NCBI GenBank assembly: GCA_944380185.1
Contig: CALWGV010000010.1
Span: 1-52,302, forward strand
Direction: 5' to 3'
Origin: an uncultured Lachnospiraceae bacterium
GTDB lineage: Bacteria > Bacillota > Clostridia > Lachnospirales > Lachnospiraceae
DNA length: 52,302 nt
The notes below the pieces were generated by a model. It saw only the letters and a list, made by a program, of their open reading frames with translations. It made no database searches and was not told the DNA's origin. Positions 21,505-48,843 of this stretch are shown piece after piece (positions within the stretch are counted from its first letter, which is position 1; each line of letters begins with the position of its first letter). A program made the position numbers and the translations under genes.

Positions 21505-21599
21505 GAGTCGCTCCTTTTGTTTCCATATTTTGTGATGGATGATGTCTGCTCCGGCAGACAGGTCTGCTTGCCGGCGATAAACTTGCGGGTGGTTTGGTG

Positions 21600-21637: not shown

Positions 21638-21668
21638 ACCTAAAATTCTGGGATAGAATCCAAAATAG

Positions 21669-21703: not shown

Positions 21704-21733
21704 ATAGTGAAGCAAGTAAAGGGGGAGGAGAAG

Positions 21734-22654
21734 ATGAAAAGAAAGGCGAAAAAGAAACTGCTGGCATTAAAAAAGCAGTGGCAGCTGCAGAGCATGGTGA
21801 TACCGGGAATTGTGTGGATGGCCATATTCTGCTATATCCCGCTGGTCTATCTGATCATTGCTTTTATGGACTATAATATCTCGGTCCCGTTATTTGAAAA
21901 TGAGTGGGTGTGGTTTAAGCACTTTAAGGCTTTTTTGACCGATGACCGATTCTGGAGATCCGTGCGCAACACTCTTGGAATGAGCGTACTGAAGATTTTT
22001 ATCGGATTTCCGATACCGATTCTGTTTGCCCTTCTCCTCAATGAAATTCGCAATGAAAAGTTTAAAAAGATGGTTCAGACCATATCCTATCTTCCGCATT
22101 TTATCTCCTGGGCGATTTTTGGGGGAATTCTTTTAAACTGGCTGTCGGAGACCGGTATCATCAATCAGCTGATGGTGAGTCTGGGCTTTCAGGACAGAGC
22201 GATTCTGTACAACGCTGATCCGGACAATTTCTGGATGATCACCTTCCTTTCGGATACCTTAAAGGAGACGGGCTGGAGCGCCATCATTTATCTGGCAGCC
22301 ATAGCGGGTATCGATCCAGGACTCTACGAGGCGGCCGATCTGGATGGAGCCAACCGGTGGCAGAAGATGTGGTATATCACCGTTCAGTGTATTCGTCCTA
22401 CCATAGCGATTTTGTTTATTCTGGCGGTCAGCAACTGCCTGGGAAGCAATTTTGATCAGATTTTCTTTATGAAGAATTCGGCCAATATGCCAAAGGCGGA
22501 GACGATAGATTTGTATATCTATAACATGGGTCTGGGCCAGGGCAGGTATTCTTTCTCTACGGCGGTTTTGTTTTTCCGGAGTATCATCGCCTTTGGACTT
22601 TTGCAGCTGTGCAATTTTGTCTCAAAGAAGCTGACCGGAGAAGGGATTATTTAA
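21734..22654 (+). CDS. Carbohydrate ABC transporter permease, LplB/CUT1 type (subunit 1)
   Basis: 306-residue membrane protein with six predicted helices. The MalF-type loop YEAADLDGANRWQKMWYITV contacts the ATPase. The N-terminus is basic and cytosolic, then MVIPGIVWMAIFCYIPLVYL. LplB/YtcP/YteP-type permeases import complex oligosaccharides (rhamnogalacturonan, beta-glucan and similar) and usually share one housekeeping ATPase (MsmX type); no ATPase gene is present in this locus, in agreement. The ATG at 21734 after GGGAGGAG is preferred over the GTG at 21707. Confidence 0.93.
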   Translation: MKRKAKKKLLALKKQWQLQSMVIPGIVWMAIFCYIPLVYLIIAFMDYNISVPLFENEWVWFKHFKAFLTDDRFWRSVRNTLGMSVLKIFIGFPIPILFALLLNEIRNEKFKKMVQTISYLPHFISWAIFGGILLNWLSETGIINQLMVSLGFQDRAILYNADPDNFWMITFLSDTLKETGWSAIIYLAAIAGIDPGLYEAADLDGANRWQKMWYITVQCIRPTIAILFILAVSNCLGSNFDQIFFMKNSANMPKAETIDLYIYNMGLGQGRYSFSTAVLFFRSIIAFGLLQLCNFVSKKLTGEGII

Positions 22655-22667
22655 GGGGGAACAGAAA

Positions 22668-23555
22668 ATGAAAGCAAAAATAAAGACCAAGCGGAAATAT
22701 AAGCTGTTTGATTACGTTTTGATTCTGATCATGCTTCTGGTCTGTTTCCTGACGATTTATCCCATGTGGTATATTTTGGTCAATTCCCTGGCTGCGCCGG
22801 ATGTGGCCTCCCTGGGGGCAGTGGCATGGTGGCCGTCGGCTCTGAGCCTGGATGCCTATAAGGTGGTTTTTCAAAATGAATATATTGTCAGCGGTTTTTT
22901 GGTGACCATAGGCCGCACGGTATTGGCGACGACGATCCATGTGCTGTTTACCGCTATGGTGGCCTATGGAATGAGCCGGAACCATCTGATTGGCCGTAAG
23001 CTCTACATGAAGATTGCGATGATCACCATGTTTTTTAACGGCGGATTGATTCCGAATTTTATTCTGATGCTGAAACTGGGATTGTACAATACCTTCTGGG
23101 TTTTTGTCATTCCGGCCATGTATACATTCTACGATATGATCATTTTTATCAGCTTCTTTCGGACTATTCCGGAGAGTCTGATTGAGAGTGCAAAGATCGA
23201 CGGCGCCTCGGAGTACACAATCTTCTGGAAAATCTTACTGCCCAACTGCAAGGCGGTGATTGCGACCATTGCTCTCTTTGCCGGAGTATACCACTGGAAT
23301 GATTACTACCAGGGCGTTATCTATATTCGGGACCGTTCCTTGCAGCCGTTACAGACGATTTTGTACAAGCTTCTGGCGGAGAGTTCGATGACGACACAGC
23401 AGCAGCAGGCCATGCTGGCGCTGGGCGGTTCCACACCGTCGGCAACGATCAAATTTGCTTCGATGGTCGTGGCAACCCTGCCGATTCTCTTTATTTATCC
23501 CTTCATCCAGAAATATCTGGTAAAGGGCGTGATGATTGGGGCGATCAAGGGGTAG
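22668..23555 (+). CDS. Carbohydrate ABC transporter permease, LplC/YtcP type (subunit 2)
   Basis: 295-residue partner permease with about six helices. The MalG-like loop is LIESAKIDGASEYTIFWKILLP. The end PFIQKYLVKGVMIGAIKG is highly typical of the YtcP/LplC group. It starts 14 bases after subunit 1 with AGGGGGAAC as ribosome site, so it is the same operon. The importer lacks its own ATPase. Confidence 0.94.
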   Translation: MKAKIKTKRKYKLFDYVLILIMLLVCFLTIYPMWYILVNSLAAPDVASLGAVAWWPSALSLDAYKVVFQNEYIVSGFLVTIGRTVLATTIHVLFTAMVAYGMSRNHLIGRKLYMKIAMITMFFNGGLIPNFILMLKLGLYNTFWVFVIPAMYTFYDMIIFISFFRTIPESLIESAKIDGASEYTIFWKILLPNCKAVIATIALFAGVYHWNDYYQGVIYIRDRSLQPLQTILYKLLAESSMTTQQQQAMLALGGSTPSATIKFASMVVATLPILFIYPFIQKYLVKGVMIGAIKG

Positions 23556-23588
23556 GAAAGAACGGCAGAATCTTTAAAATAAGCGGAA

Positions 23589-23608
23589 ATACCTGCCGGG
23601 GCGGGTAT
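23589..23608 (+). other. Small intercistronic hairpin before the binding-protein gene
   Basis: ATACCTGC and GCGGGTAT pair (with one wobble) around CGGG. It has no T-run, so it more likely stabilises the binding-protein mRNA than terminates transcription. Confidence 0.35.
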
Positions 23609-23646
23609 CGCCGGTTATGATAAATAATGAGAAGGAGGATGGGAAC

Positions 23647-25311
23647 ATGAAGAAATGGAAAAGGCTCGCAGCGTTTGTGATGGCGGCGGCAATGCTTCTG
23701 GGAATTGCAGCCTGCAGCGAAGCGGAGACCTCTGAGACGGCAGGGGGAGCGGAAAGCAGCGCCGAGACAGGCACGGCGGCAGGGGGAAGCGAGAGCGCGG
23801 TCAATCCCGATGAACCGGCCTGGAAGAGCAACACGGAGCCTGTGGATCTGACCTGGTTTATCGGGGCTTCCTGGTATCCCTATACCTGGGGGGACAGCCT
23901 GGTATCTCAGTACGTGACGGAGAAGACGGGGGTAAATGTGGAGATTGTGACGCCCACCGGCGATGTAAACGAGGAGCTCTCTCTGATGATGATCAGCGGC
24001 GATCTGCCGGATCTGATTTCACTGGGAAGCTGGGAGAGCAGCTACAATACGCTGTATGAGGGCGGTTATGTGTATGCGCTTAATGAGCTGGCAGATCAAT
24101 ATGATCCTTATTTCTACAATGTGGTGGATGGCAGCGTTATCAAATGGCATACAAAGGAGGACGGCAATCTGTACTGCATTCCCAATGATGCCTATGGCGA
24201 GGATCAGATGCGGGAGACCGGCATGACGGCAGCCACGCAGACTTTTCTGGTGAGAAAGGATCTGTATGAGGATATGGGTTCGCCGGATATGACGACGCCG
24301 GAAGGTTTTCTGGAGGCGCTGCGCCTGCTGAAAAACGAATACAGCACCTACAAGGGCGAGGTGATTACTCCTTTCTATGCTCAGGGCGGTTCCGGATATG
24401 GCCTGTCCACCTTCCTGCAGAACTTCCTGGCGGTGCCCTATGAGGTGGATGGAACTCTCTACGATCGGCTGACGGATCCGGACTATATCGAATGGCTGAA
24501 AATGTTCCGTCAGGCTTATGAGGAAGGGCTGATCGGAATTGACTTTTTGGTGGATTCGGAAGATCAGGTGACGGAAAAAGCCAACAACGGCCGATATTTC
24601 TGTATGCTGCGGGAGTGGACCGGTATGCAGGAGGCCAATACGATTTTGGCACAGAGTGAGAATCCGGACAGCTATTACATTGCCATAGACGGTCCGACCA
24701 ATGCGGACGGCGATGCTCCGATGATTTTCCCTGGCTCTCTGGATGGCTGGATGTCCTGTTTTATCAGCAAGAGCTGTGAGAACCCGGACCGTGCCATCGC
24801 TTTCCTGACGTATTTAAGCAGCGAGGAGGGACAGAGGGATATCTTCCTGGGCGTAGAGGGAGAGACCTATGATATGGTGGATGGAGAACCGGTGATGAAG
24901 GAAGAATTTGTGGATATGATGACCACAGATTTTGACACCTTCTCCAATCAGTACGGTCTGTGTGATACCTACTGGATGCTGCGCAACAGCGTGATCGTAG
25001 ATCAGTGGCGTCCTGAGTCCGAACCTTATATTCAGCAGATGAGCGATTGGGCAGATGAACACGCTTACATCGAGGGCGGCATCTATAATAATCTGGAGCC
25101 TACCGGCGACAGTGACGCGGCTATCGCGGCGACCCGGATTAATCAGAGATGGCAGGAGGTGCTGCCAGAGCTGATCACAGCGGCATCGGATGAGGAATTC
25201 GACCAGATTTTCAATGATTTCCTGGCGGACAGAGACAGTTATGGCTATGATCTGGTGGTGGAGTATGAGCAGAATCTGCTGACTTCGAGACAGAACCTGA
25301 TGGCCGAATAA
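23647..25311 (+). CDS. Carbohydrate ABC transporter substrate-binding lipoprotein (LplA/LipO type)
   Basis: 554 residues. Signal with lipobox GIAAC, then a Ser/Glu/Thr/Gly linker and a large two-lobed binding fold of the SBP_bac_1 class. Typical parts are VDLTWFIGASWYPYTWGDSL, MMISGDLPDLISLG and AIAFLTYLSSEEGQRDIFLG. The last block NQRWQEVLPELI is usual in LplA-like proteins. It delivers oligosaccharides to the two permeases just upstream. Beta-1,3-glucan oligosaccharides are inferred from neighbours. The ATG at 23647 has AAGGAGG eight bases away. Confidence 0.93.
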   Translation: MKKWKRLAAFVMAAAMLLGIAACSEAETSETAGGAESSAETGTAAGGSESAVNPDEPAWKSNTEPVDLTWFIGASWYPYTWGDSLVSQYVTEKTGVNVEIVTPTGDVNEELSLMMISGDLPDLISLGSWESSYNTLYEGGYVYALNELADQYDPYFYNVVDGSVIKWHTKEDGNLYCIPNDAYGEDQMRETGMTAATQTFLVRKDLYEDMGSPDMTTPEGFLEALRLLKNEYSTYKGEVITPFYAQGGSGYGLSTFLQNFLAVPYEVDGTLYDRLTDPDYIEWLKMFRQAYEEGLIGIDFLVDSEDQVTEKANNGRYFCMLREWTGMQEANTILAQSENPDSYYIAIDGPTNADGDAPMIFPGSLDGWMSCFISKSCENPDRAIAFLTYLSSEEGQRDIFLGVEGETYDMVDGEPVMKEEFVDMMTTDFDTFSNQYGLCDTYWMLRNSVIVDQWRPESEPYIQQMSDWADEHAYIEGGIYNNLEPTGDSDAAIAATRINQRWQEVLPELITAASDEEFDQIFNDFLADRDSYGYDLVVEYEQNLLTSRQNLMAE

Positions 25312-25334
25312 GGGAAGGCGAAGATCTGAAAATG

Positions 25335-25368
25335 GGGGCGTCCAAAGATATTTTTGGGCGTCCCTTTT
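25335..25368 (+). terminator. Terminator after the glucan importer operon
   Basis: GGGGCGTCCAAA pairs with TTTGGGCGTCCC (two wobble pairs) around GATATT and ends in TTTT. Confidence 0.75.
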
Positions 25369-25502
25369 GCTGGTGGCTCCTTTGCTGCACCTGCTTTATG
25401 TTTCCTGTTTCCTGTAAATTTTGTCTGTGGTAAACTTGTTATAGTAAATAGGAAGGCTGCTGGCGGGAAGCCGGCGCAGTTTTTAGCGGAGGAGGGGGAT
25501 GT

Positions 25503-27329
25503 ATGGGGAGAGCATACAGATGGTTTCGCAGACGATACCGCAAGATGGGATTGGCGACCAAAATTGTGGTAAACCTGACGGTAATTATTTTGATTCCGGC
25601 TCTGATTCTGGCAGGCATATGGACGAAAAATGAATCGCAGCAGGTATATGAGAGGGCTTATCTTCAGGGATTTGGAACGGTGGAGCGGGTGACGGCAGAT
25701 ATGGCGGCGGGCTGTGTTCTGATTGAGAATACCGTTCTGGCAGCGCTGAGTCAGAGAGATTTTCTCTCCTTCTGTGATGGGGACATGTATGCGGATGGAC
25801 TGAAGCTGGTAAAGTTCAGTCAGACTGAGCTCAGAAACATGAATTATATCATCCAGAGCAACAGCCTGATCGATTCGGCCAGCTTTTATTTTTTTAATGA
25901 GCAGCTGTATGAAATCTGGGATACAATCTACAGCTATGATCGCTTTCAGAATCCGGAGTTTATGGCGCGGCTTCATGAAGCGCGGGGAAGCGTATTTTTG
26001 GCCAATGGCGTCACGGAGCAGGCACAGGGGTATGTGTCCTGCTACCGAGAAGTATATCTGGATACAACGCTGATTGGCGTGCTGGAGATACGGGTCCGCC
26101 CGGAGGATTTCTTTGCGCAGATTATAGAGGAAAATGAAATAGCCTCCAGGGAAGGAAGCGGCCAGATACAGGGGGTTACCCTGCTCGTTGACGGGGAGAG
26201 CAGGGAGCTGATATATCCGGAACAAATGCAGGAAATACCCACATCTCTCCTGGAAAGGCTCTCCGGTCAGATAAAGCAGACGCCTTCCCGCGCCAACTTT
26301 TCTCTCTCGACGGATGACGGGCGATATTTTGGGGTTTATCAATATATGGAAGAGATGGATCTCTATGCCGTTCATCTGGTGTCGGAGGAATCTCTGACCG
26401 GAGGAATCTATCGAAGCGTGGCGACGATCCTGCTGGCGCTGATTCTGATTCTTGCTCTGCTGTATTTGGTTGCCACTTCTGTTTACCGCAGAATGCTGGT
26501 GCGTCTTCGCCTTCTCACCGCCTCCATGCGTCAGGTTCAGGAGGGAGATCTGCAAGTGCGGGTGGAAGAGGTGGCGGACGGGGATGAACTGGACGAGCTG
26601 GGCTGCCATTTTAACAGTATGCTCTCCCGGATTGAAGGACTGATCGAGGAGAACGTAACCCGCCAGACGGCGGCAGTGGAGGCGGAGCTCAATGCGCTGC
26701 AGAGTCAGATCAACAGCCATTTTCTATACAATGCACTGGAGAGCATACGGATGATGGCGGAGATTCGCGGCGAGACGGAGCTGGCGGATACCATCGTGTC
26801 TCTGGGAAGCCTTCTGCGGTATCATATGAGCTGGAAGACCAAGACGGTAGCCCTCAGAGAGGAGATCGAAAGCATCCGGCGCTATGTGTATTTTGTCAAT
26901 ATGATCTACGAGTTTGATGTCCAGCTGACGGTACGCCTTACGGAGGAGCAGCTGAATACGGATATTCCCCGTCTCTGCCTGCAGCCTTTGGTAGAAAACA
27001 GCGTGGTCCATGGTATGGTTCCGGGCAGCCGTTCCCTGCATATCACCATCAGTGCGGTAGAAAACGGCAAGGTACTGGTCCTGCAGGTATTGGACGATGG
27101 GGCGGGGATATCCAAGGAGAGGATGAAGCTTCTGGAGGAAGCGCTCTATGGAAGAGCCCATGAAAGCCTGAAAATCGGCAGGAATGGGATTGGAATCGTC
27201 AATGTACACAGAAGACTGCAGATGAACTATGGAAATGAGTACGGCCTGGTGCTGCAGAGCGAGGAAAACACCTATACACTGGTGAAAGTTGTAATGCCTT
27301 ATGAGAGAAAAGAGCTGGGAGGATGGTAA
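25503..27329 (+). CDS. Sensor histidine kinase, YesM type
   Basis: 608 residues. First membrane helix about 20-40 (VNLTVIILIPALILAGIW), extracellular sensor domain of about 260 residues, second helix about 303-325, then HAMP (RLRLLTASMRQVQEGDLQVR). The His_kinase domain follows, with phospho-acceptor His406 in QINSHFLYNALESI (family form NPHFLYN; here Ser replaces Pro). The HATPase_c domain has LQPLVENSVVHG and VLDDGAGI. YesM-type kinases sit beside carbohydrate importers and sense the sugar or its loaded binding protein. The stop overlaps the response regulator start. Confidence 0.95.
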   Translation: MGRAYRWFRRRYRKMGLATKIVVNLTVIILIPALILAGIWTKNESQQVYERAYLQGFGTVERVTADMAAGCVLIENTVLAALSQRDFLSFCDGDMYADGLKLVKFSQTELRNMNYIIQSNSLIDSASFYFFNEQLYEIWDTIYSYDRFQNPEFMARLHEARGSVFLANGVTEQAQGYVSCYREVYLDTTLIGVLEIRVRPEDFFAQIIEENEIASREGSGQIQGVTLLVDGESRELIYPEQMQEIPTSLLERLSGQIKQTPSRANFSLSTDDGRYFGVYQYMEEMDLYAVHLVSEESLTGGIYRSVATILLALILILALLYLVATSVYRRMLVRLRLLTASMRQVQEGDLQVRVEEVADGDELDELGCHFNSMLSRIEGLIEENVTRQTAAVEAELNALQSQINSHFLYNALESIRMMAEIRGETELADTIVSLGSLLRYHMSWKTKTVALREEIESIRRYVYFVNMIYEFDVQLTVRLTEEQLNTDIPRLCLQPLVENSVVHGMVPGSRSLHITISAVENGKVLVLQVLDDGAGISKERMKLLEEALYGRAHESLKIGRNGIGIVNVHRRLQMNYGNEYGLVLQSEENTYTLVKVVMPYERKELGGW

Positions 27330-28852
27330 GGGTGTTCAATATTCTGGTAGTGGATGATCAGGCGAAGATCCGAGAGGGAATCCGCTCTATGCTTATGGGG
27401 CAGAGGGAAGGGCTGGAAACGGAGACGGCGTCAGGCGGTCTGGAGGCGCTGGAAAAGATTCACCGGAAGCGGCCGCAGCTGGTGATCACCGATATTCGGA
27501 TGCCCGGCATGGATGGCATTGCGTTGATGGAGGCAGTGCATGACCAGTATCCGGAGGTCCGTTTCCTGGTGGTCAGTGGATACGATGACTTTAAATATGC
27601 ACAGAAGGCTATTGAGTACGGAGCCAAAGGCTATCTGCTCAAGCCTCTGGAGAGAGAGCTGCTGGTGCAGGCCGTGGACCGTGTAATCCAGGAAGCTGAG
27701 CTGGAAAACAAACGGCAGATGGCTGACAGTGAAACAAAGGATGTCCGGAAATTTTTGCTGTCCTATTTGAAGGGGACAGGGCCTTGGCCGGATCGCGCCG
27801 GGTATCTTGCGCGGGAATATCCTTTTCTGGAGCAGGGGTATGTGCTGCTCTATCTGGGATATCCGGGGTATAGAGGAGAAGTGCCGGCAGGGAAAATTTT
27901 GCCGCAGCTCCTTGCAGGATTGGATTGCATCCAGCTGCAGGGGCCGGAGGAGGCGGTGGCAGTGTGCAGCCGCAGCCTTGCCCTGTCCCAGGCCAGGCAG
28001 TGCGCGGAAGGCCAGAAAGCGACGGTGATTTCCGTCAGCGGGGAATATAAGGGAGTGGGTGATCTGCCCAAGGCCTACGCGCAGGCCAGAGAAATCTATG
28101 TGCATCGTTTTCTATACCCGGACCGCCATTTCCTGACACAGGAAGAGATTGAAAATCTGCGGCCGGATTTTACTGTGCCATACCGACGGGTGGAACGGAT
28201 ACGGGATATGCTGGGGGCATGTGATGAGGCGGATATCATTGCTTATATTTCCGAGATTTTTGACCGGAAAACCTTAAGCAGCTACCGAATCGGATATACG
28301 TTGGCCCTGTGCGACTGCGTCTACCGGGCTGTGCGGTCGGTGGAGAGGGAGATAGAGCAGAAAGATGCGCAAGAGGGAAAAGAGAAAGAGGGCTGCAGTC
28401 TTGGCAGCCTGATGGACTTTGCAGGGATGCGTGAGTATCTGCTGGCCTTAAAGGAGGAGCTTTTGCGTTTGAACTGCCGGGTCAGACAGTACCGGGAGAG
28501 GTATCGGGAAAATGCAGATATGGAAAAGGCTATCGCTTATATGAAGGCCAATTATCGCCGTCAGCTGACTTTGGCCATGGTATCCAATAGCGTATCTTTA
28601 AATTACGCCTATTTTTCCAATGCGTTTCGCAAATATACAGGAATGACCTTTTTGGAATATCTGCGGGATATCCGAATCGCGGAGAGCAAGCGTCTGCTGG
28701 CAGAGACAGATCTGCGCATCGGCCAGGTGGCGGAGGCGGTGGGATATGACAGCTACAAAAATTTCTCTCGGGTGTTCAAGGAGGCTGTGGGGGTAACCCC
28801 GGCCGATTACCGCAGGGGGAAACAGATGAGAAGAGGAAATGAGGAGGAGTAA
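27323..28852 (+). CDS. Response regulator with AraC-type DNA-binding domain, YesN type
   Basis: 509 residues. Receiver domain with Asp11-Asp12 and phospho-acceptor Asp57 (VITDIRMPGMDG), a middle region of about 270 residues, and a C-terminal AraC double helix-turn-helix (about 395-500: LTLAMVSNSVSLNYAYFSNA, RIGQVAEAVGYDSYKNFSRV). It is the natural activator of the adjacent glucan genes; the duplicated promoter element at 18711 and 21669 is a candidate target. ATG 27323 lies inside the kinase's last codons with GGGAGG in front. Confidence 0.95.
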   Translation: MVRVFNILVVDDQAKIREGIRSMLMGQREGLETETASGGLEALEKIHRKRPQLVITDIRMPGMDGIALMEAVHDQYPEVRFLVVSGYDDFKYAQKAIEYGAKGYLLKPLERELLVQAVDRVIQEAELENKRQMADSETKDVRKFLLSYLKGTGPWPDRAGYLAREYPFLEQGYVLLYLGYPGYRGEVPAGKILPQLLAGLDCIQLQGPEEAVAVCSRSLALSQARQCAEGQKATVISVSGEYKGVGDLPKAYAQAREIYVHRFLYPDRHFLTQEEIENLRPDFTVPYRRVERIRDMLGACDEADIIAYISEIFDRKTLSSYRIGYTLALCDCVYRAVRSVEREIEQKDAQEGKEKEGCSLGSLMDFAGMREYLLALKEELLRLNCRVRQYRERYRENADMEKAIAYMKANYRRQLTLAMVSNSVSLNYAYFSNAFRKYTGMTFLEYLRDIRIAESKRLLAETDLRIGQVAEAVGYDSYKNFSRVFKEAVGVTPADYRRGKQMRRGNEEE

Positions 28853-28854
28853 CG

Positions 28855-31800
28855 ATGAGGAGTCTTCCTTTTGAAAAGGGGATATGCTATTCCGGCTATC
28901 GGCGGGGGCAGAGTCCCCGTACAGGCCTCTGCCCGGAAGAAAGCCAGGTGGCGGAGGATCTGGAAATTTTGGTAGCGAGAGGATACCGGCTGCTGCGCAT
29001 GTACGAGCCGGGGAAGCATACGGAAATGGTCTTAAAGCGGATCCGGCAGGATGGGCTGCCGCTGCGGGTGCAGGTGGGGATTGACCCCAGAGCGGAGCTG
29101 TACAATCCGCGCTGTGTCTGGGCGAAAAGGCTGAGCGAAGAGGAGGCGAAGGCTAACCGCAGCTATAACGAGGCGCAGCTTGCAAGGCTATGCGCCCTGG
29201 CCGGGGAATATGAGCGGGAGATTGTCGCTCTGTCGGTGGGCAATGAAAATACGCCGGACTGGGGAGGGGATATATTGGCGCAGGAGCGCCTTGTGGAATT
29301 CGCTCTGAGGGTCCGGGAGTTTTGCCGCCAGCCGGTGACCTACAATGAAGGCGCCCCTCAGTGGAAGGGGCTGCGTGCCTTAGGGGAAATTCTTGATTTT
29401 ATTTCGATTCATAGCTATCCACAGTGGAACCGCGTGCCCTTAAAGGAGGCAGCAGCCTGGACCCGCAGGGATTACGAAGAGGTAAAGGCTCTCTATCCGG
29501 ATAGACAGATCGTCATTGGCGAGTATGGCTGGACGACGAAGAGCGACAGCTGCCAGATGCTGCAGGATGAGGCTTCGGCAGAGGGACAGACCCTGTATCT
29601 GAGACAGATGGAGCGGTGGCTTAAGAAGGAGCAGGCGACGGCTTTTGTATTTGAAGCATTTGACGAGCCCTGGAAGGGCGGCAGTCAAGAAGCTGAACCG
29701 GAGAAGCACTGGGGGCTTTACACGGAGGAACGCAGGGAGAAGAACCCTGCCCTGTCGCCTGCCGGAGGGTATGTGTTTCTGGATGATGCAGGAACCTTCC
29801 GGCTTCGCAGTCCGGAACGGGTAAGCGGACTGTATCTGCCGCTTACCGCCCCGGGAGGCCTGAAATCCTGTATAAGTCCGCTGCTGGGGGGAGATGCAAA
29901 AATTGACCAGGAGCATTTTTTGCTGCAGCCGGTAAGCATAGACGATCTGCATATCAGCCGCAGCAGCCGCAATTTCTGGTGCAGTACCAAGGACGGGCGG
30001 ATCTGGTCGGCGGCAGGCGTATCGCCGGAACAGATTCAGGGACGTTTCTGCCCGCAGGAGGAGGTTACGCTGGAGGCCGGCCCTTTGTGGCAGTGCGTTC
30101 GCCGCAGCCGCGCAGGCTTCCTGACGGCCTCCGTGACTTCCTGGGTGCCGGATGAAGCGCCCAGGACGGAGGTGATGTGGGTATCCGTGCGAAATGAGAG
30201 TGAGGAGGAGCTTACGCTTACTGCCACAGCAGCCGTGCCGATTTATGGGCGCAGCGCCGACAACCTGCGGGATCACCGCCATGTCACCTCACTGCTGCAT
30301 CGAACTTATACCTCGCAGCGGGCAGTGATTGTACGTCCTACTCTGTCCTTTGATGAAAAGGGGCACAGAAAGAACGATACGGCATACTTTGTGGCGGGAG
30401 CCGGAGAGTACGGAGAAATGCCGCAGGAGTTTTGTCCTGATGCGGCGGCCTTCATCGGCGAGGGAGGAAGCTTTGAATGGCCGGAATGGGTGGTGCGCGG
30501 GCTGCCCGGATGCCCTCCCGGCAGCCGGCTCTGCGGAAAGGAAAGCGTAGGCGCTCTGCGCTTTGCGCCCCGAAGACTGAGGCCGGGGGAGACGGCAGAC
30601 TATATTGTCGTGATGGGAATCCTGGAGGGGCAGGAGATAGAGAGCAGGAAAGAGGAAGAATACCTGGATAGGCTGGGCAGCCGTATAAAAGCGTCCCGCT
30701 CTCTGGAGAAAACGAAAAAAAGCTGGCAGGATCGGCAGACGATTTCTTTTGCCACGTCGGACAGGCAGAGGGACCGACTGTACCGCTGGATTTGCCTGCA
30801 GCCTGACTTGCGCCGCATCTTTGGCTGCTCCTTTTTGCCGCATCATGATTATGGCAGGGGCGGACGAGGCTGGAGAGATCTGTGGCAGGACTGCCTGGCA
30901 GGGCTGATCACGGAGCCTGCTCTGATGCGGGACAGCCTGATTGCTTATTTTGGCGGGGTGCGTATGGATGGGACAAACGCCACGATCATCGGCACAGAAC
31001 CGGGAGAATTTATTGCAGACCGGAACCAAATCCTGCGAGTGTGGATGGATCACGGCTATTGGCCTTTTGTCACGCTGGAATTTTATGTGCAGCAGACCGG
31101 TGATTTGGATGTCCTTTTTGAGGCGGTTCCTTATTTTCAGGATGGGCAGATCAAACGGGGGACAGAAAAAGACCCGCAGTGTGAGGAAGCAGATCATCGG
31201 CTGAGGACCGTATCGGGCGAACCTTATCTGGGCACAGTGCTGGAACATGTGCTGATCGAGCATCTAACAGCCTGCGCCGAATTGGGCGAGCACGGCTATA
31301 TCCGCCTGCGCGGGGCGGACTGGAACGATGCGCTGGATATGGCGCCGGACCGGGGAGAGAGCGTAGCCTTTACGGCGGCCTATGCTGGCGGGCTGACGAA
31401 GCTGGCACGGCTGCTTCGCCATATACGCGAAGTCAAACCGCAGCAGAAGCTTATGCTGGCGCAGGAGCTGGGGGAGCTTGCCTCTATGAGTAAGAAAAGC
31501 GATGAAGAAAAGCGGGAGAGCCTGGCCCGTTATGCAGAAGCATGCAGAGGACGGATAAGCGGGCGGCGCGCAGGCTTTGATGCGCTGGAGCTTGCCGCAG
31601 AGCTGGAGGCGCTTGCCGCCGGGATGAAGGAGCGTATCCGCAGCCGGGAATGGGTGCAGTCGGAGCCGGACTGCGGCTTTATGAACGGTTATTATGACAA
31701 TCTGGGCAGAGCTGTGGAGGGGGCAGGGCCGGAAGGCGTTCGCATGATGCTGACCAGCCAGGTCTTTGCCCTGGCCTCGGATACGGCGACGGAGAGTCAG

Positions 31801-32454
31801 GCGGCGATGATGGTAAAGAGCGCCGATCGATACCTGTATCATCGAGAAAGAGGAGGATATTGCCTGAACACGGAATTTGGCGAGGGTGAAATGACTCTGG
31901 GGAGGATGTTTGGCTTTGCCTATGGCCATAAGGAAAATGGAGCCGTATTTTCCCACATGGCGGTGATGTATGCTCATGCCCTGTATGGCCGCAAAATGGT
32001 GCGGGAGGGGTACCGGGTAATCGACAGGCTGCTGCGCCAGGCGGCCGACTTTTCTGTCAGCCGGATTTATCCGGGGATTCCCGAGTATTTTGACCGGAAC
32101 GGACGGGGGATGTATCACTATCTGACCGGTGCGGCCAGCTGGCTGATGATTACGGCGGTGACGGAAATGTTCGGCGTAAAGGGAAATTGGGGAGATATGA
32201 TTTTTGAGCCGAAGCTTATGGCGGAGCAATTTGATGCAAAAGGGCAGGCAATGATCCGGCTGCGCTTCGCGGGACGTCCTTTTCAGGTGATCTACCATAA
32301 TCCGCTGCGGCTGGAATACGGCGTCTATGAAATCGGCCGCATGACAGTCGACGGGCGGGAATGGACGGGAAATATGCTGAAAAAGGCAGAGCTGGAATCG
32401 TTTGCAGCCTGCCAGGAACAGCAGATTGATATCTGGCTGGAAGAAAAAAGGTAA
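28855..32454 (+). CDS. Bifunctional GH17-like / GH94-like glycan-degrading protein
   Basis: 1199 residues, no signal peptide, so cytoplasmic. Module 1 (about 1-298) reads as bacterial GH17: GICYSGYRRGQSP at the start, acid/base Glu131 (SVGNENTP), nucleophile Glu223 (VIGEYGW), and FVFEAFDEPWKGG near its end. Module 2 (about 300-1199) reads as a GH94-type phosphorylase: an N-terminal beta-sandwich, RGGRGWRDLWQDCLAGLI (about 668-685), catalytic acid Asp825 in RGADWNDALDMA, and YRVIDRLLRQ plus a C-terminal barrel end. GH17 enzymes cut or rearrange beta-1,3-glucans; GH94 enzymes phosphorolyse beta-glucosides to glucose-1-phosphate. The fusion suggests one protein that first trims and then phosphorolyses imported glucans. 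It starts 2 bases after the regulator's stop, so it is the same operon. Exact linkage specificity is not certain. Confidence 0.85.
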   Translation: MRSLPFEKGICYSGYRRGQSPRTGLCPEESQVAEDLEILVARGYRLLRMYEPGKHTEMVLKRIRQDGLPLRVQVGIDPRAELYNPRCVWAKRLSEEEAKANRSYNEAQLARLCALAGEYEREIVALSVGNENTPDWGGDILAQERLVEFALRVREFCRQPVTYNEGAPQWKGLRALGEILDFISIHSYPQWNRVPLKEAAAWTRRDYEEVKALYPDRQIVIGEYGWTTKSDSCQMLQDEASAEGQTLYLRQMERWLKKEQATAFVFEAFDEPWKGGSQEAEPEKHWGLYTEERREKNPALSPAGGYVFLDDAGTFRLRSPERVSGLYLPLTAPGGLKSCISPLLGGDAKIDQEHFLLQPVSIDDLHISRSSRNFWCSTKDGRIWSAAGVSPEQIQGRFCPQEEVTLEAGPLWQCVRRSRAGFLTASVTSWVPDEAPRTEVMWVSVRNESEEELTLTATAAVPIYGRSADNLRDHRHVTSLLHRTYTSQRAVIVRPTLSFDEKGHRKNDTAYFVAGAGEYGEMPQEFCPDAAAFIGEGGSFEWPEWVVRGLPGCPPGSRLCGKESVGALRFAPRRLRPGETADYIVVMGILEGQEIESRKEEEYLDRLGSRIKASRSLEKTKKSWQDRQTISFATSDRQRDRLYRWICLQPDLRRIFGCSFLPHHDYGRGGRGWRDLWQDCLAGLITEPALMRDSLIAYFGGVRMDGTNATIIGTEPGEFIADRNQILRVWMDHGYWPFVTLEFYVQQTGDLDVLFEAVPYFQDGQIKRGTEKDPQCEEADHRLRTVSGEPYLGTVLEHVLIEHLTACAELGEHGYIRLRGADWNDALDMAPDRGESVAFTAAYAGGLTKLARLLRHIREVKPQQKLMLAQELGELASMSKKSDEEKRESLARYAEACRGRISGRRAGFDALELAAELEALAAGMKERIRSREWVQSEPDCGFMNGYYDNLGRAVEGAGPEGVRMMLTSQVFALASDTATESQAAMMVKSADRYLYHRERGGYCLNTEFGEGEMTLGRMFGFAYGHKENGAVFSHMAVMYAHALYGRKMVREGYRVIDRLLRQAADFSVSRIYPGIPEYFDRNGRGMYHYLTGAASWLMITAVTEMFGVKGNWGDMIFEPKLMAEQFDAKGQAMIRLRFAGRPFQVIYHNPLRLEYGVYEIGRMTVDGREWTGNMLKKAELESFAACQEQQIDIWLEEKR

Positions 32455-32472
32455 AGGGAGAGGAAAAAGAAA

Positions 32473-35400
32473 ATGAGAGTGGAAGGACAGCGCGTGATCA
32501 TCGAGGACTATGGCAGGAAACCGACATTTTCCAGCTTTCTGCCCGGCATAGCCGGCACAAGGGGGATTCCGATCTGGTGCTATTACGTAAATCGGGGGCA
32601 GGCTGTGGCCAGCTTTGGCGTGGAGGATAAGGATCACAGTATCATGGAATTCTGCCCGGCCCATCAGGCTTATCAAAACGTGAAGCGAACCGGCTTTCGC
32701 ACCTTTATCCGGCGGGATCAGGACAGATGGGAGCCCTTTGCCCAGGAGACGGAGGGGCAGCGGATGGAAATCTCCATGAATACCCTGACGCTGGTGGAGG
32801 CGAGGCGAGACAGGGGTCTGGAGATACGTGTGGACTATTTCGTTTTGCCGGGGGAGAAGGTGGGGGCATTGGCCAGAAAGCTTACCGTCACCAATATTTC
32901 CGGGGAGGAGTGGACCGGCGAGATCCTCGACGGGATGCCGGCTCTAGTCCCCTACGGCGTAAATCTGTGGACGCTCAAATATATGTGCCAGACCGGCAAG
33001 GCATGGATGGAAGCGGAGGATGCACAGACGGGAGTACCCTGTTTTTGCGTGCGTGCAAGCATGGAGGATACGGCCCAGGTAAGCGAGGTGAAGGGCGGGC
33101 ATTTTTCTCTGGGAACGGATGGAAGCGGAAAGCTGCTGGAGCCGGTGGCGGACCCGGAGGCTGTATTTGGCTACGATACTTCTCTGGAAGAGCCGGTGGC
33201 TTTTTGGGCGGGAGGACTGGCCGGTATCCTTGCCGGAAGACAGAGCTGCCAAAATCAGTTTCCCTGCAGCTTTTATGGTATCCGCAGGCGTTTGGCGGCA
33301 GGAGAGAGCGCAGAGCTGTATCAGCTGATCGGCCAGGTGGCAGACAGGGAGCAATTGGAGGAGCTGAGACGGGCAAACTTTACGGCGGCCTGGTTTGCGG
33401 ATAAGTACCGAGAGGCGGAAGGGCTGACGCAGGAACTGACGGCCCCTGCATCCGTGCGGACAGCTGATCCTGTTTTTGACGCCTACTGCCGCTACACCTA
33501 TCTGGATAATGGGCTGCGGGGCGGATTTCCCGTCCGTTTGCCCGGAAAAAAGATATTCTATACCTATTCCCGCAAGCACGGGGATTTGGAGCGGGATTAT
33601 AATTATTTCACCCTGCGGCCGGAATACTACTCGCAGGGAAACGGAAATTACCGCGATATGAATCAGAACCGGCGCTGTGATGTGAGCTTTGCTCCCTTTG
33701 TGGGGGATTATAATATTCGTTTGTTTTATGATCTGATCCAGCTGGACGGCTACAATCCTCTGCAGCTGGATCCGGTGACTTTTTGTTTAAGTCCCGGCCA
33801 GGCGGAAGAATACGGCGTTCCGGAAAGCTTTACTCCCGGTGAGCTGTGCCGCATTCTATGGGCGAAAGGGCAAAATGAGGAGGAACAGAAGGAGCTGTTT
33901 GCGCAGATTATGGAGGAAGCCTGCCTCGAAGAACGAGCTGCCTTTGGAGAGGGGTATTGGTGCGATCACTGGACCTATGGGCTGGATTTGGTTGAGGATT
34001 ACCTGAGTATCTTTCCGGATAAGGAGGAAGAGCTGCTCTTTGCCGAAAATCTTCGCTGGTATAAGGCCAAGGCCTGCTTAAAGCCCTGCCAGAAGAGGAG
34101 CAAAAAAACTGCGGCAGGACTCAGACAATATGAATTTTTAGATGAGAGGGAGACGGACAGAGATTGGGAGGCTTTCAGCAGTTCCCTGCTGGAGAAATTT
34201 GTTCTGCTGTGCGCCGTCAAGTTTGCCGCTCTGGATTTTTATGCCATGGGCGTATCCATGGAGGGGGGCAAGCCGGGCTGGTACGATGCGCTGAATGGAC
34301 TGCCGGGACTTTACGGCTCCTCCATGGCGGAAACCTGCGAGCTGGAGCGGCTTTTGCACTTCACGATGGAGAAGCTTGGCAAATACGGCAGGCCGGTGCG
34401 TCTGCGCCGAGAGATCTATGGATTGTTAAAAGAATTGGGGGATATTGCCGGTAAGCGGAGAGCAGCCCTGAAAAGAAGGGAAGTTCAGCTGTCTTTTTAT
34501 CTGGAGATCAACCGGGCGGCAGAAGCCTACCGGACCGCGGCCTATGCCGGACAATATGGAGAAGGCGTATTGGCGGAGGCCGGTGAACTGACCTTTTTGC
34601 TGGAGCCTTTATTGTCGGCGGTTACCGCGGCGGTACAAAAGGCGCAGGAGGATGCGCAGGTCTTCCCCACTTACTATTATTACGAGATTACCCGCTGGGA
34701 GGAAAATGCGGCGGGGATCTGGCCTTTGGAGGTAAAGCAGAAAAAAGCGCCGCTGTTTTTAGAAGGATCGGTGCATTGGCTGCGGTCTGGCGGCGGCCGG
34801 GAGGAGAAGCTTAAATTATACAGGGCAGTGAAAGAGAGTCCTCTCTATGACAGAGAACTTAAAATGTATAAGGTAAACGCATCCCTGCGGGAAGCCGGTA
34901 TGGAGCTGGGGAGGGCGGCGGCTTTTACGCCGGGCTGGCTGGAAAACGAATCGATCTGGCTGCATATGGAGTACAAATATCTGCTGGAGCTGCTGCGCTC
35001 AGGCCTCTATGAAGAATTTACCGAAGATTTTCGGCGGGCGGCGATTCCGTTCCTGGATGCCGATCGATACGGCAGAAGTCCGCTGGAAAATTCATCATTT
35101 TTGGTCAGCAGCAGCAATCCCGATGAAAAACTCTGGGGGCGGGGCTTTGTGGCCCGCCTGAGCGGTTCCACAGCAGAATTTCTTACCATGTGGAAATGGA
35201 TGTTCTTTGGACAGAGACCTTTTGAGACATTGGACGGAGAACTGGTGCTTCGATTGGCCCCGGCTCTCCCGGCCTGCCTGGTGAGAGACAGAAGCACAGT
35301 GGAGGCCAGATTCCTGGGACAGACAGATGTGGTGTACCGCCTGGCCCGTAATACGATGACGGAGGCTTCCTTTATGCCGGGCGAATATGAAATGGGTGAT

Positions 35401-35529
35401 ATTCGTCTTTTGTACACAGATGGAAGCATCCGCCATACCTGCGGCCTGATCCGGGGAGAGGAGGCGATCGACGTCCGGGAGGGACGGGTGAGGCGGATAG
35501 AGGCAGAGCTTCATCTCCTGTCGGAGTAA
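32473..35529 (+). CDS. Large inverting phosphorylase-like protein, probably beta-1,3-glucan phosphorylase (GH161/GH149-like)
   Basis: 1018 residues, cytoplasmic. The N-terminal beta-sandwich (about 1-300) carries NTLTLVEARRDRGLEIRVDY. The core (about 330-950) is an (alpha/alpha)6 barrel with DLERDYNYF, QGNGNYRDMNQNRR (about 388-401), GDYNIRLFYDLIQLDGYNPL and GKPGWYDALNGLPGLYGSS. Asp605 is the likely catalytic acid. These large-phosphorylase blocks differ from classical GH94 and resemble the oligomer-acting beta-1,3-glucan phosphorylases. The expected reaction is glucan plus phosphate giving glucose-1-phosphate. It begins 18 bases after the GH17-GH94 gene. Its last 19 bases overlap the convergent MATE gene. 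Family placement (GH161, GH149 or divergent GH94) is by motif memory only. Confidence 0.7.
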   Translation: MRVEGQRVIIEDYGRKPTFSSFLPGIAGTRGIPIWCYYVNRGQAVASFGVEDKDHSIMEFCPAHQAYQNVKRTGFRTFIRRDQDRWEPFAQETEGQRMEISMNTLTLVEARRDRGLEIRVDYFVLPGEKVGALARKLTVTNISGEEWTGEILDGMPALVPYGVNLWTLKYMCQTGKAWMEAEDAQTGVPCFCVRASMEDTAQVSEVKGGHFSLGTDGSGKLLEPVADPEAVFGYDTSLEEPVAFWAGGLAGILAGRQSCQNQFPCSFYGIRRRLAAGESAELYQLIGQVADREQLEELRRANFTAAWFADKYREAEGLTQELTAPASVRTADPVFDAYCRYTYLDNGLRGGFPVRLPGKKIFYTYSRKHGDLERDYNYFTLRPEYYSQGNGNYRDMNQNRRCDVSFAPFVGDYNIRLFYDLIQLDGYNPLQLDPVTFCLSPGQAEEYGVPESFTPGELCRILWAKGQNEEEQKELFAQIMEEACLEERAAFGEGYWCDHWTYGLDLVEDYLSIFPDKEEELLFAENLRWYKAKACLKPCQKRSKKTAAGLRQYEFLDERETDRDWEAFSSSLLEKFVLLCAVKFAALDFYAMGVSMEGGKPGWYDALNGLPGLYGSSMAETCELERLLHFTMEKLGKYGRPVRLRREIYGLLKELGDIAGKRRAALKRREVQLSFYLEINRAAEAYRTAAYAGQYGEGVLAEAGELTFLLEPLLSAVTAAVQKAQEDAQVFPTYYYYEITRWEENAAGIWPLEVKQKKAPLFLEGSVHWLRSGGGREEKLKLYRAVKESPLYDRELKMYKVNASLREAGMELGRAAAFTPGWLENESIWLHMEYKYLLELLRSGLYEEFTEDFRRAAIPFLDADRYGRSPLENSSFLVSSSNPDEKLWGRGFVARLSGSTAEFLTMWKWMFFGQRPFETLDGELVLRLAPALPACLVRDRSTVEARFLGQTDVVYRLARNTMTEASFMPGEYEMGDIRLLYTDGSIRHTCGLIRGEEAIDVREGRVRRIEAELHLLSE

Positions 35530-45359: not shown

Positions 45360-45433
45360 AAGCTTATCGTGAAGCTTCCCGGACAGGGACCGCCAATGCT
45401 TTGGGAAAGCAAAAATGGGGAGGAACCATACTG

Positions 45434-46132
45434 ATGAAAAGCAGAAAATATATAGCGTGTCAGATCTATAAGCCTTATTTGGAACGAATCCTGAAAGAGG
45501 AGAAGCTGTGCGCCGAAGTGGAATATGTGGATATCGAGGCGCATAATGAACCGCGGAAACTGCGGGAAACTTTGCAGGAACGGATTGATGCAAACCAGGA
45601 TAAGGATGAGATTGTTCTGCTGTACGGAATCTGCGGAAATGCAGCAGAGGGACTGCGGTCCGAGAAAAGCGAATTGATCCTGTTTCGCGTACACGACTGT
45701 CTGGCTGTGCTTTTGGGAAGCAACATTCGATATCAGGAAATGATTGAGATCCATAAGGTGGGGCAGTGGAAATGCGAGGGAAACTATTCGGTATATTTGC
45801 AGCGGTACGGCCGGCAGTATTATGAGTACGTAAGGCGGTACGGGGAGGATAACGCCCGCTATATCATGTCGGTATTAAACCCGGAGCCGGATCGGACAGA
45901 CTATATTTGCTTTGGAACGGATGAGGACCGGGAGAATATCCGTCATCTGCGGCAGACAAAAGAGGTGACGGTATGGGAAGGGGATATGCAGCTTTTAAAA
46001 GACATGATGCTGCAGAGGGCAAACGATATGATTTTGCATGTGAAAGCGGGCGGCAGCATTCACTGCATTTATGATTACGAAACGGTAATGCAGGAACGGC
46101 GAGGGCCGTGTCATGGTAAAAAGCACCGATAG
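45434..46132 (+). CDS. DUF1638 domain-containing protein
   Basis: 232 residues. The family motifs are present: IACQIYKPYLERIL at the start, VLLYGICGNAAEGLRS, LILFRVHDCLAVLLGSN (HDC motif) and YICFGTDEDRENIRHL later. DUF1638 proteins are usually found with corrinoid-dependent methyltransferase systems; none is seen here, so this copy is isolated. The conserved Cys, His and Asp residues suggest a metal or small-molecule site. ATG 45434 follows GGGGAGG with ten bases between; it could start earlier but without a better ribosome site. Confidence 0.78.
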   Translation: MKSRKYIACQIYKPYLERILKEEKLCAEVEYVDIEAHNEPRKLRETLQERIDANQDKDEIVLLYGICGNAAEGLRSEKSELILFRVHDCLAVLLGSNIRYQEMIEIHKVGQWKCEGNYSVYLQRYGRQYYEYVRRYGEDNARYIMSVLNPEPDRTDYICFGTDEDRENIRHLRQTKEVTVWEGDMQLLKDMMLQRANDMILHVKAGGSIHCIYDYETVMQERRGPCHGKKHR

Positions 46133-46324: not shown

Positions 46325-47212
46325 ATGAAAAAACTCATAGCTTTATGCATGGCAATGCTGTTGGCCGTATCGATGATCGGCTGCGGCGGAAACGAGGAGA
46401 CGACAGCGGCGCAGACCCAGGCGGCCGGCGGCGAGGAAACGGTCCAGGCGGTCAAGGTTATTCCCATTGACCTGACGGAAGAGGAATATGCTTTCGGTGT
46501 GGATAAAACACAGCCGGAGCTGCTGGAGCAGGTGAACGCTTTTATTGCCAAGATTCAGGAGGACGGCACCCTGGATGAAATCTTCAATAAATATTTTGGC
46601 GACGGCGAGCCCACCCCTGTCGTTTCCGCAGAGCTTGACGAGTCCAAGGATCAGCTGGTGGTTGCGACCAATGCAGCTTTTGAGCCTTTCGAGTATATGG
46701 ATGGCGACAGCTACCTGGGCATCGACATGGAGATTGCAGCCCTCCTTGCCGAGGAACTGGGGCAGGAGCTGGTAATTCAGAATATGGAATTTGACGCGGT
46801 CTGCCTCTCCGTGGGACAGCAGAGATGCGATATCGCCATGGCTGGTCTGACGGTCAACGCCGAGAGAGAAGAGTATGTGACCTTCTCCGACACCTATTAT
46901 CAGGCGTCCCAGAGGCTGATCACCACCGGTGATGACACCACCTTTGATGCCTGCACCGACGCTGCTTCCGTGGAAGAGATTCTGGCGGGCCTAAGCTCTT
47001 CCGATAAGATCGGTGTGCAGAGAGGCACTACCGGCCAGTACTATGTGGAGGGCGATGAGGATTGGGGATTCGCGGGACTTCCCGCCGAATGCGTGCCCTA
47101 CGCCAATGGCTCCCTGGCGGTTCAGGACTTGATCAACGGCAACCTCACCTATGTGATCATTGACGCGGCTCCGGCTGACTGTATCACCGAGGCGCTCAAT
47201 GAGGTGCAGTGA
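46325..47212 (+). CDS. Amino-acid ABC transporter substrate-binding lipoprotein with apparently circularly permuted fold
   Basis: 295 residues with lipobox MIGC (Cys20). After a linker, residues 43-92 (VKVIPIDLTEEEYAFGV ... DEIFNKYFG) are what normally closes an SBP_bac_3 protein: the last strand and two helices of lobe 1. Only then, from about residue 110, comes the usual beginning (LVVATNAAFEPFEY, GIDMEIAALLAEELG), followed by lobe 2 (CDIAMAGLTVNAEREEYVTFSD). The protein stops at VIIDAAPADCITEALNEVQ, exactly where the missing terminal segment would follow. The binding protein at 7955 in this window has the normal order. Start ATG 46325 has GGAGGAG. It precedes the permease and ATPase genes. 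Confidence 0.9.
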   Translation: MKKLIALCMAMLLAVSMIGCGGNEETTAAQTQAAGGEETVQAVKVIPIDLTEEEYAFGVDKTQPELLEQVNAFIAKIQEDGTLDEIFNKYFGDGEPTPVVSAELDESKDQLVVATNAAFEPFEYMDGDSYLGIDMEIAALLAEELGQELVIQNMEFDAVCLSVGQQRCDIAMAGLTVNAEREEYVTFSDTYYQASQRLITTGDDTTFDACTDAASVEEILAGLSSSDKIGVQRGTTGQYYVEGDEDWGFAGLPAECVPYANGSLAVQDLINGNLTYVIIDAAPADCITEALNEVQ

Positions 47213-47261: not shown

Positions 47262-47295
47262 AAAAAGCGGGCAGAAAAAAGGCTGCCCGCTTTTT
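47262..47295 (+). terminator. Intra-operon terminator between binding protein and permease
   Basis: A perfect 13-base-pair stem (AAAAAGCGGGCAG with CTGCCCGCTTTTT) around 8 bases and ending in T5. It lies between the binding-protein and permease genes, so most transcripts would end after the binding protein, giving it an excess over the membrane parts. Confidence 0.85.
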
Positions 47296-47318: not shown

Positions 47319-48029
47319 ATGGGAGATTTCGGACGAAAAATAGAACGTTTTCTGGAAGTTTTTATTGAGAAAAACGGATATGTCAGGGTGCTGAACGGCC
47401 TGCAGAACACCCTGCTTATTGCGGTGACCGGCCTGCTGATCGGCATAGTGATCGGCACGCTGATCGCAACGGTGCGGGTGGTGCCTAAATATAAAAGGCT
47501 GCCCCGCGTCTTAAATGGATTTTGCAGCTTTTACGTAGGGCTGTTTCGCGGGACACCTATGGTGGTGCAGCTGCTGGTTTTTTATTATGTGCTGCTGCCC
47601 CTTTTGGATATCAATATGACCGGCGTGCAGGTATCCATGATGGTGTTCGGCTTAAACAGCGGAGCCTATATCTCGGAGATCATGCGGAGCGGCATTCAGT
47701 CGGTGGATCCGGGTCAGCTGGAGGCGGGCCGGGCCGTGGGTCTCAGCTTTCACACCAGCATGATGAAAATTGTGATTCCCCAGGCGGTGAAAAATATTCT
47801 GCCCACCCTGGGCAACGAATTTATCTCGCTGATCAAGGAGACCTCGGTGGTGAGCTTCGTAGGGGCGGCCGACCTGTATGTGGCCTTCAGCTATATCGGC
47901 AGCAACAGCTATGAGTTTATGGTGCCTTATCTGGTGATGGCCCTGATCTATATCGTGCTGGTGATGCTCATTTCTCTGATGATACGATGGATGGAAAGGA
48001 GCCTGAAGAAGAGTGATAGACGTAATTGA
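47319..48029 (+). CDS. Polar amino-acid ABC transporter permease (second importer)
   Basis: 236-residue PAAT permease: [20 protein letters not shown] at the first helix, [19 protein letters not shown], then the EAA-type loop [21 protein letters not shown] and [21 protein letters not shown]. The substrate is plausibly a basic or polar amino acid, in view of the ARG-box-like sites upstream of the operon. The gene overlaps the ATPase start by 17 bases, indicating tight translational coupling. Confidence 0.93.
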
Positions 48030-48843
48030 TCTGAAAAAAAGCTTTGACGGTGTGGAAGTCTTAAAGGGGATCAATGTGACCATCAACAAGGGCGATATCG
48101 TCGTGGTCATCGGCCCTTCCGGCTCCGGCAAGAGCACCTTCCTGCGCTGCTTAAACTGCATGGAGGATCCCACCAGCGGCAGCGTGATCTTTAATGGAGT
48201 GGATATCGCTGATATGAGCGTGGATATCAACATTCACCGCCGTCATATGGGAATGGTGTTCCAGCACTTTAATCTGTTCAACAATAAGACGGTAATCGAG
48301 AACATCATGCTGGCGCCGGTCTATACCCGCTGCCAGGAGTTAAACAAGGCGCGCCGCAGAAATGCCTGGCTGGGCGTGAAAAACCGTTTTGCCCCGGCGG
48401 ATAAGAAGGAGGAGCCGGTTCCGGTTGCCACCACCAAGGCGGAAATCAAAAAGGAAGCGAGGGAGGACGCCCTGCGTCTCTTAAAGCGAATCGGCCTGGA
48501 GGATAAGGCCGATGCTTATCCATCTACCCTGTCCGGCGGACAGAAGCAGAGGGTGGCGATTGTCCGGTCTCTGGCGATGAATCCGGATGTAATTCTGTTC
48601 GACGAGCCCACCAGCGCCCTGGACCCGGAGATGGTCGGCGAGGTGCTGGATCTGATGAAGGCCCTGGCTGATGAAGGAATGACCATGGTCATCGTCACCC
48701 ATGAGATGGGCTTTGCCAGAGAGGTAGCGACCAGAGTCCTCTTTATGGATGAGGGAGTCATCAAGGAGAGCGCTCCGCCGGAGGAGTTTTTTGCTCATCC
48801 GAAGAATCCCAGACTCCAGGAATTTTTATCCAAGGTACTGTAA
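48013..48843 (+). CDS. Polar amino-acid ABC transporter ATP-binding protein with inserted segment
   Basis: 276 residues from a GTG start inside the permease gene. Walker [14 protein letters not shown]-loop [17 protein letters not shown], signature [16 protein letters not shown], Walker [14 protein letters not shown] and H-loop [14 protein letters not shown]. It is about 25-30 residues longer than the ATPase at 7105; the extra charged stretch (around [20 protein letters not shown], residues about 116-135 and on to about 150) falls in the helical domain between Q-loop and signature. Everything needed for ATP hydrolysis is intact. Confidence 0.94.

Follow-up and report, generated by a model that had tools for sequence, protein, structure and literature searches.

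Organization of the locus at 46325 to 47212

Within the window, by which we mean the whole stretch of 52,302 nucleotides that was analyzed, an open reading frame (ORF) on the + strand starts with an ATG at 46325, has a stop codon ending at 47212, and encodes a lipoprotein of 295 amino acids. The sequence GGGAGGAGAG directly 5' of this ATG is the likely ribosome-binding site; an alternative in-frame ATG, 33 nt upstream of 46325, is a less likely start. The predicted product is a solute-binding protein (SBP), and its gene is followed by those for a permease and an ATPase. The features of this region are as follows.

46325..47212, + strand: circularly permuted SBP_bac_3 lipoprotein of 295 amino acids, with the tail segment ahead of lobe 1 and lobe 2 last
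46325..46384, + strand: signal peptide and lipobox (MIGC, Cys20), the lipobox read by eye
46448..46603, + strand: displaced C-terminal segment, residues 42 to 93, with the last lobe-2 strand, the second hinge and two lobe-1 helices
46604..46645, + strand: linker, residues 94 to 107, from the old C terminus to the old N terminus
46646..46894, + strand: lobe 1, canonical N-terminal part, residues 108 to 190, with Thr176 and Arg181
46910..47209, + strand: lobe 2, residues 196 to 295, with Asp280; the chain end is the cut site
47262..47295, + strand: terminator-like 13-bp hairpin with a T-rich 3' arm, between the SBP and permease genes, found by eye and not listed by the scan
47319..48029, + strand: cognate amino-acid ABC permease (BPD_transp_1, HEQRo_perm_3TM)
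48013..48843, + strand: cognate GlnQ-like ABC ATPase, with an insertion relative to GlnQ at about residues 103 to 141 (window positions 48319 to 48436)

The permease scored 72.8 bits against TIGR01726 (cut-off, 42.2), and the GlnQ-like ATPase scored 297.5, below the equivalog cut-off of 379. The HEQRo-type permease and the ATPase expected of a polar amino-acid ABC importer were thus both present, and they were conserved in relatives. A search for an RNA leader gave no Rfam match at gathering thresholds within the window.

The surroundings of the operon were also inspected. A gene for a DUF1638 protein (45401 to 46132) lies directly 5' of the SBP gene; among the compared relatives, it was found only in L005 and L071, which probably come from the same genome. 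Downstream histidine genes were considered as a hint to the substrate and rejected, because hisH and hisF stand beside the operon only in the window and in L005, some loci being too short to show them. Elsewhere in the window, positions 18797 to 35529 contain a probable beta-glucan locus. It encodes a pair of GH16 enzymes, a GH94-type protein whose weak GH17-like match falls short of the cut-off, and a 1,018-amino-acid protein without a Pfam match; between them, a binding protein and two ABC permeases were recognized by eye.

The C-terminal segment of the binding protein comes first

The original prediction held that the segment belonging at the C terminus of such a protein stands ahead of lobe 1, that the protein encoded from position 7955 shows the standard order, and that the difference amounts to a circular permutation. 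The Pfam profile SBP_bac_3 (PF00497) matched the window protein at 110 bits (curated cut-off, 26.4) in two stretches. The canonical linear order, lobe 1 to lobe 2 to C-terminal segment, was not found; the tail came first, and the chain stopped at the point where the canonical tail would follow. After reordering in silico to the canonical arrangement, the profile matched in a single stretch from position 1 to 131 of 132 (4.3e-34), compared with two stretches for the native sequence, the better of which covered positions 1 to 98 of 132 (9.2e-32). BLASTP against the canonical protein of the window (7955 to 8839) gave crossed matches, with residues 1 to 203 aligned to 1 to 162 (E, 8e-13) and residues 43 to 92 aligned to 236 to 287 (E, 5e-5). 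Likewise, residues 110 to 284 and 42 to 93 aligned to 11 to 171 and 182 to 233, respectively, of AncQR (4zv1), and residues 110 to 212 and 45 to 93 aligned to 4 to 106 and 175 to 223 of GlnH (1ggg). When a 53-amino-acid tail fragment was the sole query, it matched AncQR at 183 to 233 (E, 4.2e-6; 177,635 sequences).

In what follows, lobe 1 is called a, lobe 2 is called b, and the tail is called c; the canonical order is a-b-c, that of the window type is c-a-b, and a third rotation is b-c-a. No leftover second copy of the tail was seen behind lobe 2 in the window-type ORFs of the loci examined, the sole other stretch listed in such an ORF being one within lobe 1 of L023 (E, 3.1). These comparisons bore out the order proposed for both proteins of the window, and at the level of sequence, the predicted product of 46325 to 47212 is confirmed as a polar amino-acid binding protein (SBP_bac_3) in the circularly permuted order c-a-b.

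The tail-first order is shared by relatives from independent genomes

One scan of the genome collection gave 66 related loci, among which 47 were tail-first, 1 (L049) was split over two frames, and 18 were canonical. A chance segment order is excluded because the same order recurs in these 47 of 66 loci, a recurrence that also upholds the reading as a permutation. In L049, from a metagenome assembly, two ORFs within about 3874 to 4855 make up a window-type gene in two frames, which points to a frameshift or a sequencing error. The tail-first order was present in all seven same-genus genomes searched, the window's included, and in named isolates, Merdimonas faecis (L046) and Sporofaciens musculi (L031) among them; some of the tail-first loci (L026, L027, L037, L038, and L045) belong to genomes with Oscillospiraceae or Ruminococcus in their titles. 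Similar sequences had been thought possible in Lachnospiraceae, and a search for homologues with the same order had been proposed; these loci, together with matches in 33 of 299 genomes of the family (see below), supplied them.

In an alignment of 43 sequences (the window protein and those of 42 of the 47 tail-first loci), Cys20 was invariant. The two profile matches were separated by 14 to 15 residues in 58 of the 60 tail-first ORFs, a set in which some genes are repeated. Relative to L004 and L005, the two closest relatives, dN/dS was low, with ratios of 0.030 and 0.042 in the displaced segment compared with 0.026 and 0.036 in the remainder; of four further comparisons, three were affected by saturation of one or more values, and the ratios that stayed finite ranged from 0.074 to 0.105. 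The next gene was that of a separate permease in 44 of the 47 tail-first loci, and the permease was fused to the SBP in the other 3 (L029, L033, and L050). An ATPase was present in 46 of the 47, the remaining locus, L040, ending before the ATPase position. The ATPase varies in length between relatives.

Both termini map to lobe 2 of a fold predicted to be kept

The lobes of GlnBP are delimited as 5 to 84 plus 186 to 224 (large) and 90 to 180 (small) in PMC13229503. When these boundaries were mapped by alignment, residues 42 to 50 of the window protein corresponded to the last part of lobe 2, residues 51 to 55 to the second hinge, and residues 56 to 93 to lobe 1. Lobe 1 thus comprises residues 56 to 190, now continuous, and lobe 2 comprises residues 42 to 50 and 196 to 295. 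By this mapping, both new termini are placed on lobe 2, so that the lipid anchor is predicted to be attached to lobe 2 and no longer to lobe 1. The original prediction that the tether changes while the fold is retained stands, the fold by the model described below, whereas its wording that the lobe 1 terminus was moved next to the anchor does not fit the mapping.

A structure prediction, which had been recommended, modeled the mature domain with high confidence. With the 43 aligned sequences, AlphaFold2 gave a mean pLDDT of 88.1 and a pTM of 0.77, and 217 of the 295 residues scored at least 90. Beyond the first 40 residues (the signal peptide and the following stretch), every mean over ten residues exceeded 80 and nearly every one exceeded 90; for the displaced segment (residues 41 to 90), the means were 95 to 98. 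The model supports the view that the predicted fold is kept in the permuted protein and that the displaced segment is part of it, and it speaks against a separate N-terminal domain, the outcome named at the outset as one that would overturn the permutation. In a sequential Foldseek search, the 50 matches listed were amino-acid or related SBPs, with no sugar SBP among them. Typically about 185 of 220 residues were aligned to closed structures (for example, 4f3p_B, with 184 columns, 2.1 Å, and a TMt of 0.70), as expected with a tail unable to follow in sequence.

The aligned pocket is nearly the same across segment orders

In GlnH, R75, T70, and D157 form the alpha-amino-acid clamp. R181, T176, and D280 of the window protein align to these residues, and they were invariant in all 43 aligned sequences. 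We further compared 11 positions aligned to the ligand site of GlnH, two of them uncertain. The resulting pocket string, NFFAGTRQTID, was identical in the window protein, the b-c-a protein L102, the canonical L053, the tandem L091, and the divergent c-a-b protein L094; the canonical L052 and L054 had one and two differences, respectively. The 51 rows of order c-a-b and the 14 of order b-c-a for the most part matched it position by position. The divergent permuted proteins L093, L095, and L079 departed from it, and in distant canonical rows, including the 7955 protein of the window, the pocket residues were widely different. The aligned residues suggest one ligand type common to the close group of c-a-b, b-c-a, and nearest canonical proteins.

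A third rotation exists in the same family

A window-type profile gave full-length matches in 33 of 299 genomes of the family (Lachnospiraceae) and, unexpectedly, 52 partial matches covering the tail and lobe 1. The 20 regions fetched from this search contained 13 b-c-a proteins, with a permease fusion in 5 cases, as well as 5 window-type proteins (L094 to L098), 1 triple tandem (L091), and 1 kinase fusion (L093). The b-c-a model had a mean pLDDT of 90.3, and when the predicted models were compared, its secondary-structure elements read like those of the window protein in rotated order. A third rotation, b-c-a, exists in the window's family.

Beyond the fetched loci, order was taken from a full-length match to an ordered profile. 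A profile of the 13 b-c-a proteins matched in 63 of the 299 family genomes, or 62 without the tandem-bearing genome G200, with 1 of the 62 (G172) being partial. The 33 c-a-b and 62 b-c-a genomes did not overlap among the 299 (P, 2.8e-4 by a hypergeometric calculation that ignores kinship); in all these genome searches, the best 8 candidates per genome were scored (the best 6 in the window-type phylum sample), and absences are accordingly soft. In an order-level sample, window-type full-length matches were found in 11 of 295 genomes, some of them in two other families. In phylum samples, the window type was found in 2 of 398 genomes, both family members and one of them the window's own, and b-c-a was found in 1 of 299, also a family member.

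Several related ORFs had unusual structures. L091 (G200:C2) is a 973-amino-acid ORF in which a tandem of three canonical SBDs, nearly identical to one another, is fused to a permease. L093 (G236:C17, 510 to 2654) encodes a 715-amino-acid serine/threonine kinase with a tail-first SBP domain on its C-terminal side, in which the profile recognizes the tail and lobe 1, not lobe 2. Its aligned pocket, IYFSASQEAGQ, is altered, and because of these changes the domain may sense something else. L079 (G001:C233), from the window's genus, is a divergent SBP beside permease and ATPase genes; it is probably of the order b-c-a, with lobe 2 unrecognized by the profile.

Proposed function and origin

We consider it very likely that the window protein is a naturally permuted, lipid-anchored SBP serving a polar amino-acid ABC importer of type I, and its order would have come about by duplication and trimming of tandem domains. 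Such a protein would bind an alpha-amino acid by ordinary two-lobe closure and deliver it to its own permease while anchored via lobe 2. A tandem SBD-SBD-permease protein, as in GlnPQ, would have been trimmed to the tail of one domain and the lobes of the next, and b-c-a would be the product of a similar trim. Among published models of permutation, that by duplication is the earliest (PMC3320104).

The best PDB match of the c-a-b family profile was the GlnPQ SBD1-SBD2 tandem 6h30, from the SBD1 tail into SBD2. This structure was also the top Foldseek match of the b-c-a model, over 233 columns at 19.6 Å, an rmsd that fits pieces lying in two separate domains; by sequence, the b-c-a profile placed it third, behind AncQR 4zv1 and an ArgBP entry. 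Because any tandem contains a tail-to-lobe junction, these matches indicate compatibility, not ancestry. The linkers of the tail-first ORFs, of 14 to 15 residues, compare with one of 14 residues in GlnPQ (PMC8025302). Trimming of a GlnPQ-like tandem is favoured as the origin, though not proven, because of the 6h30 matches, the triple tandem L091, the permease fusions, and the linker length. L091 fell outside the window clade, grouping with b-c-a, and the near identity of its three units marks them as recent; the loci examined included no tandem ancestral to the window clade.

A tree was built from 88 reordered sequences, leaving out 18 loci (repeated or nearly duplicate ones, those representing copies or homologues of the canonical protein of the window, and the split gene). 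In this tree, 50 of the 51 c-a-b rows formed one branch (100/99), and the remaining one, L094, sat with b-c-a and the tandem L091. The group of L094 and L091 held 13 of the 14 b-c-a rows, the weakly recognized L079 being elsewhere; long branches affect several of these placements. The trees preferred more than one origin per rotation, but AU tests on 83 rows (5 long-branch rows dropped from the 88) did not reject a single origin for c-a-b (P, 0.10), b-c-a (P, 0.33), or both (P, 0.09).

Of the explanations that compete with this account, an assembly or annotation artefact has a negligible chance of being right. The window does come from a draft genome of 112 contigs that is 84% complete; nevertheless, the order recurs in all seven same-genus genomes, as full-length profile matches in 33 of the 299 family genomes, and in named isolates, and an assembly error, which the original prediction had named as a possible refutation, was rejected on the strength of these independent assemblies. 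It is also improbable that the displaced segment completes a neighbouring molecule, in an obligate domain-swapped dimer with no intramolecular permutation. The C-terminal helices of Thermotoga ArgBP are swapped, entries for that protein are among our matches, and a linker of 14 to 15 residues could allow swapping. Yet the monomer model places the segment with high confidence, and the length of the linker is nearly fixed.

Somewhat less improbable, though still unlikely, is a route by fission and fusion, in which the tail first split off into its own gene and was then fused in front. This is a general published model (PMC3320104), and in L049 the tail and lobes are in two frames, although a frameshift is more likely there; a stand-alone tail gene was not met in passing among the fetched loci, and the tandem and permease-fused forms fit trimming better. 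A different kind of question is whether the lobe-2 anchor is an advantage at all. The permutation may be a neutral relic of tandem decay, a reading that competes only with an adaptive one, is compatible with tandem trimming, and seems to us evenly balanced. The nearest canonical, c-a-b, and b-c-a proteins share nearly one pocket string and have the gene order SBP-permease-ATPase in common, and the two rotations never co-occur in the 299 genomes, as if they were interchangeable. Against neutrality, each order persists in a large clade, which neutrality permits as well.

Taking tandem trimming as the favoured origin, we tentatively extend it, at somewhat less than even confidence, to all three rotations in the family and its kin: a-b-c, c-a-b, and b-c-a would be interchangeable modules of one importer type, spun off from tandem-domain transporters, with the rotation deciding whether lobe 1 or lobe 2 is attached to the lipid or permease. 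In fused window-type forms, both tethers would be on lobe 2, and docking could thereby be steered.

Relation to known binding proteins

Engineered permutants of binding proteins serve as tools, and few natural ones have been met in print. Here, the canonical form is accompanied by two rotations in which the aligned pocket is almost unchanged and the operon order is retained, and a tandem occurs among the relatives, which makes the origin of a permutation testable; with natural rotations at hand, the effect of lobe-1 versus lobe-2 anchoring on uptake becomes testable too. A caution also arises for profile searches, in which permuted SBPs show up as two fragments, even the better of which matches only part of the profile.

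The original prediction knew of no description of such a protein as a permutation. This held for SBP_bac_3, for which no report of a natural permutation was found in searches of an open-access library, but not for other SBP families, in which natural permutation is published. In their accessible text, the CIRPIN paper (PMC12667903) does not mention solute-binding, ABC transporter, or periplasmic, and the term "permut" does not occur in PMC9602780; PMC2912341 was set aside as a chance co-occurrence of terms in the part available.

With canonical polar amino-acid SBPs (PF00497: GlnH, AncQR, HisJ), the window protein shares the profile match, the lobes and hinge by alignment, the aligned Arg/Thr/Asp clamp, the lipobox, and the operon; it differs from them in segment order and in having both termini on lobe 2, where the canonical form has them on lobe 1. 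The treponemal TpMglB-2 (Tp0684), proposed in PMC4990184 as a permuted sugar SBP of "Type Ic / Cluster Bc," is likewise a naturally permuted lipoprotein SBP, and its authors also speculate on tethering; it has a Type I sugar-binding fold and a different cut site and strand order, whereas the Pfam match of the window protein is of the SBP_bac_3 kind. The glycine betaine-binding proteins 2B4L, 1R9L, and 1SW1, circular permutants of one another according to PMC2395249, are a further natural permutation in bilobed binding proteins, but in another family and detected by structure at <24% identity. The SBD1-SBD2-permease arrangement of GlnPQ (6h30; PMC8025302) has the same tail-linker-lobe junction and is resembled by the permease fusions of the relatives; GlnPQ carries two complete canonical SBDs fused to its permease, whereas the window protein is one permuted domain with a separate permease. 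Natural SBP permutation is thus already published for sugar and glycine betaine families, and the protein described here is a case from SBP_bac_3.
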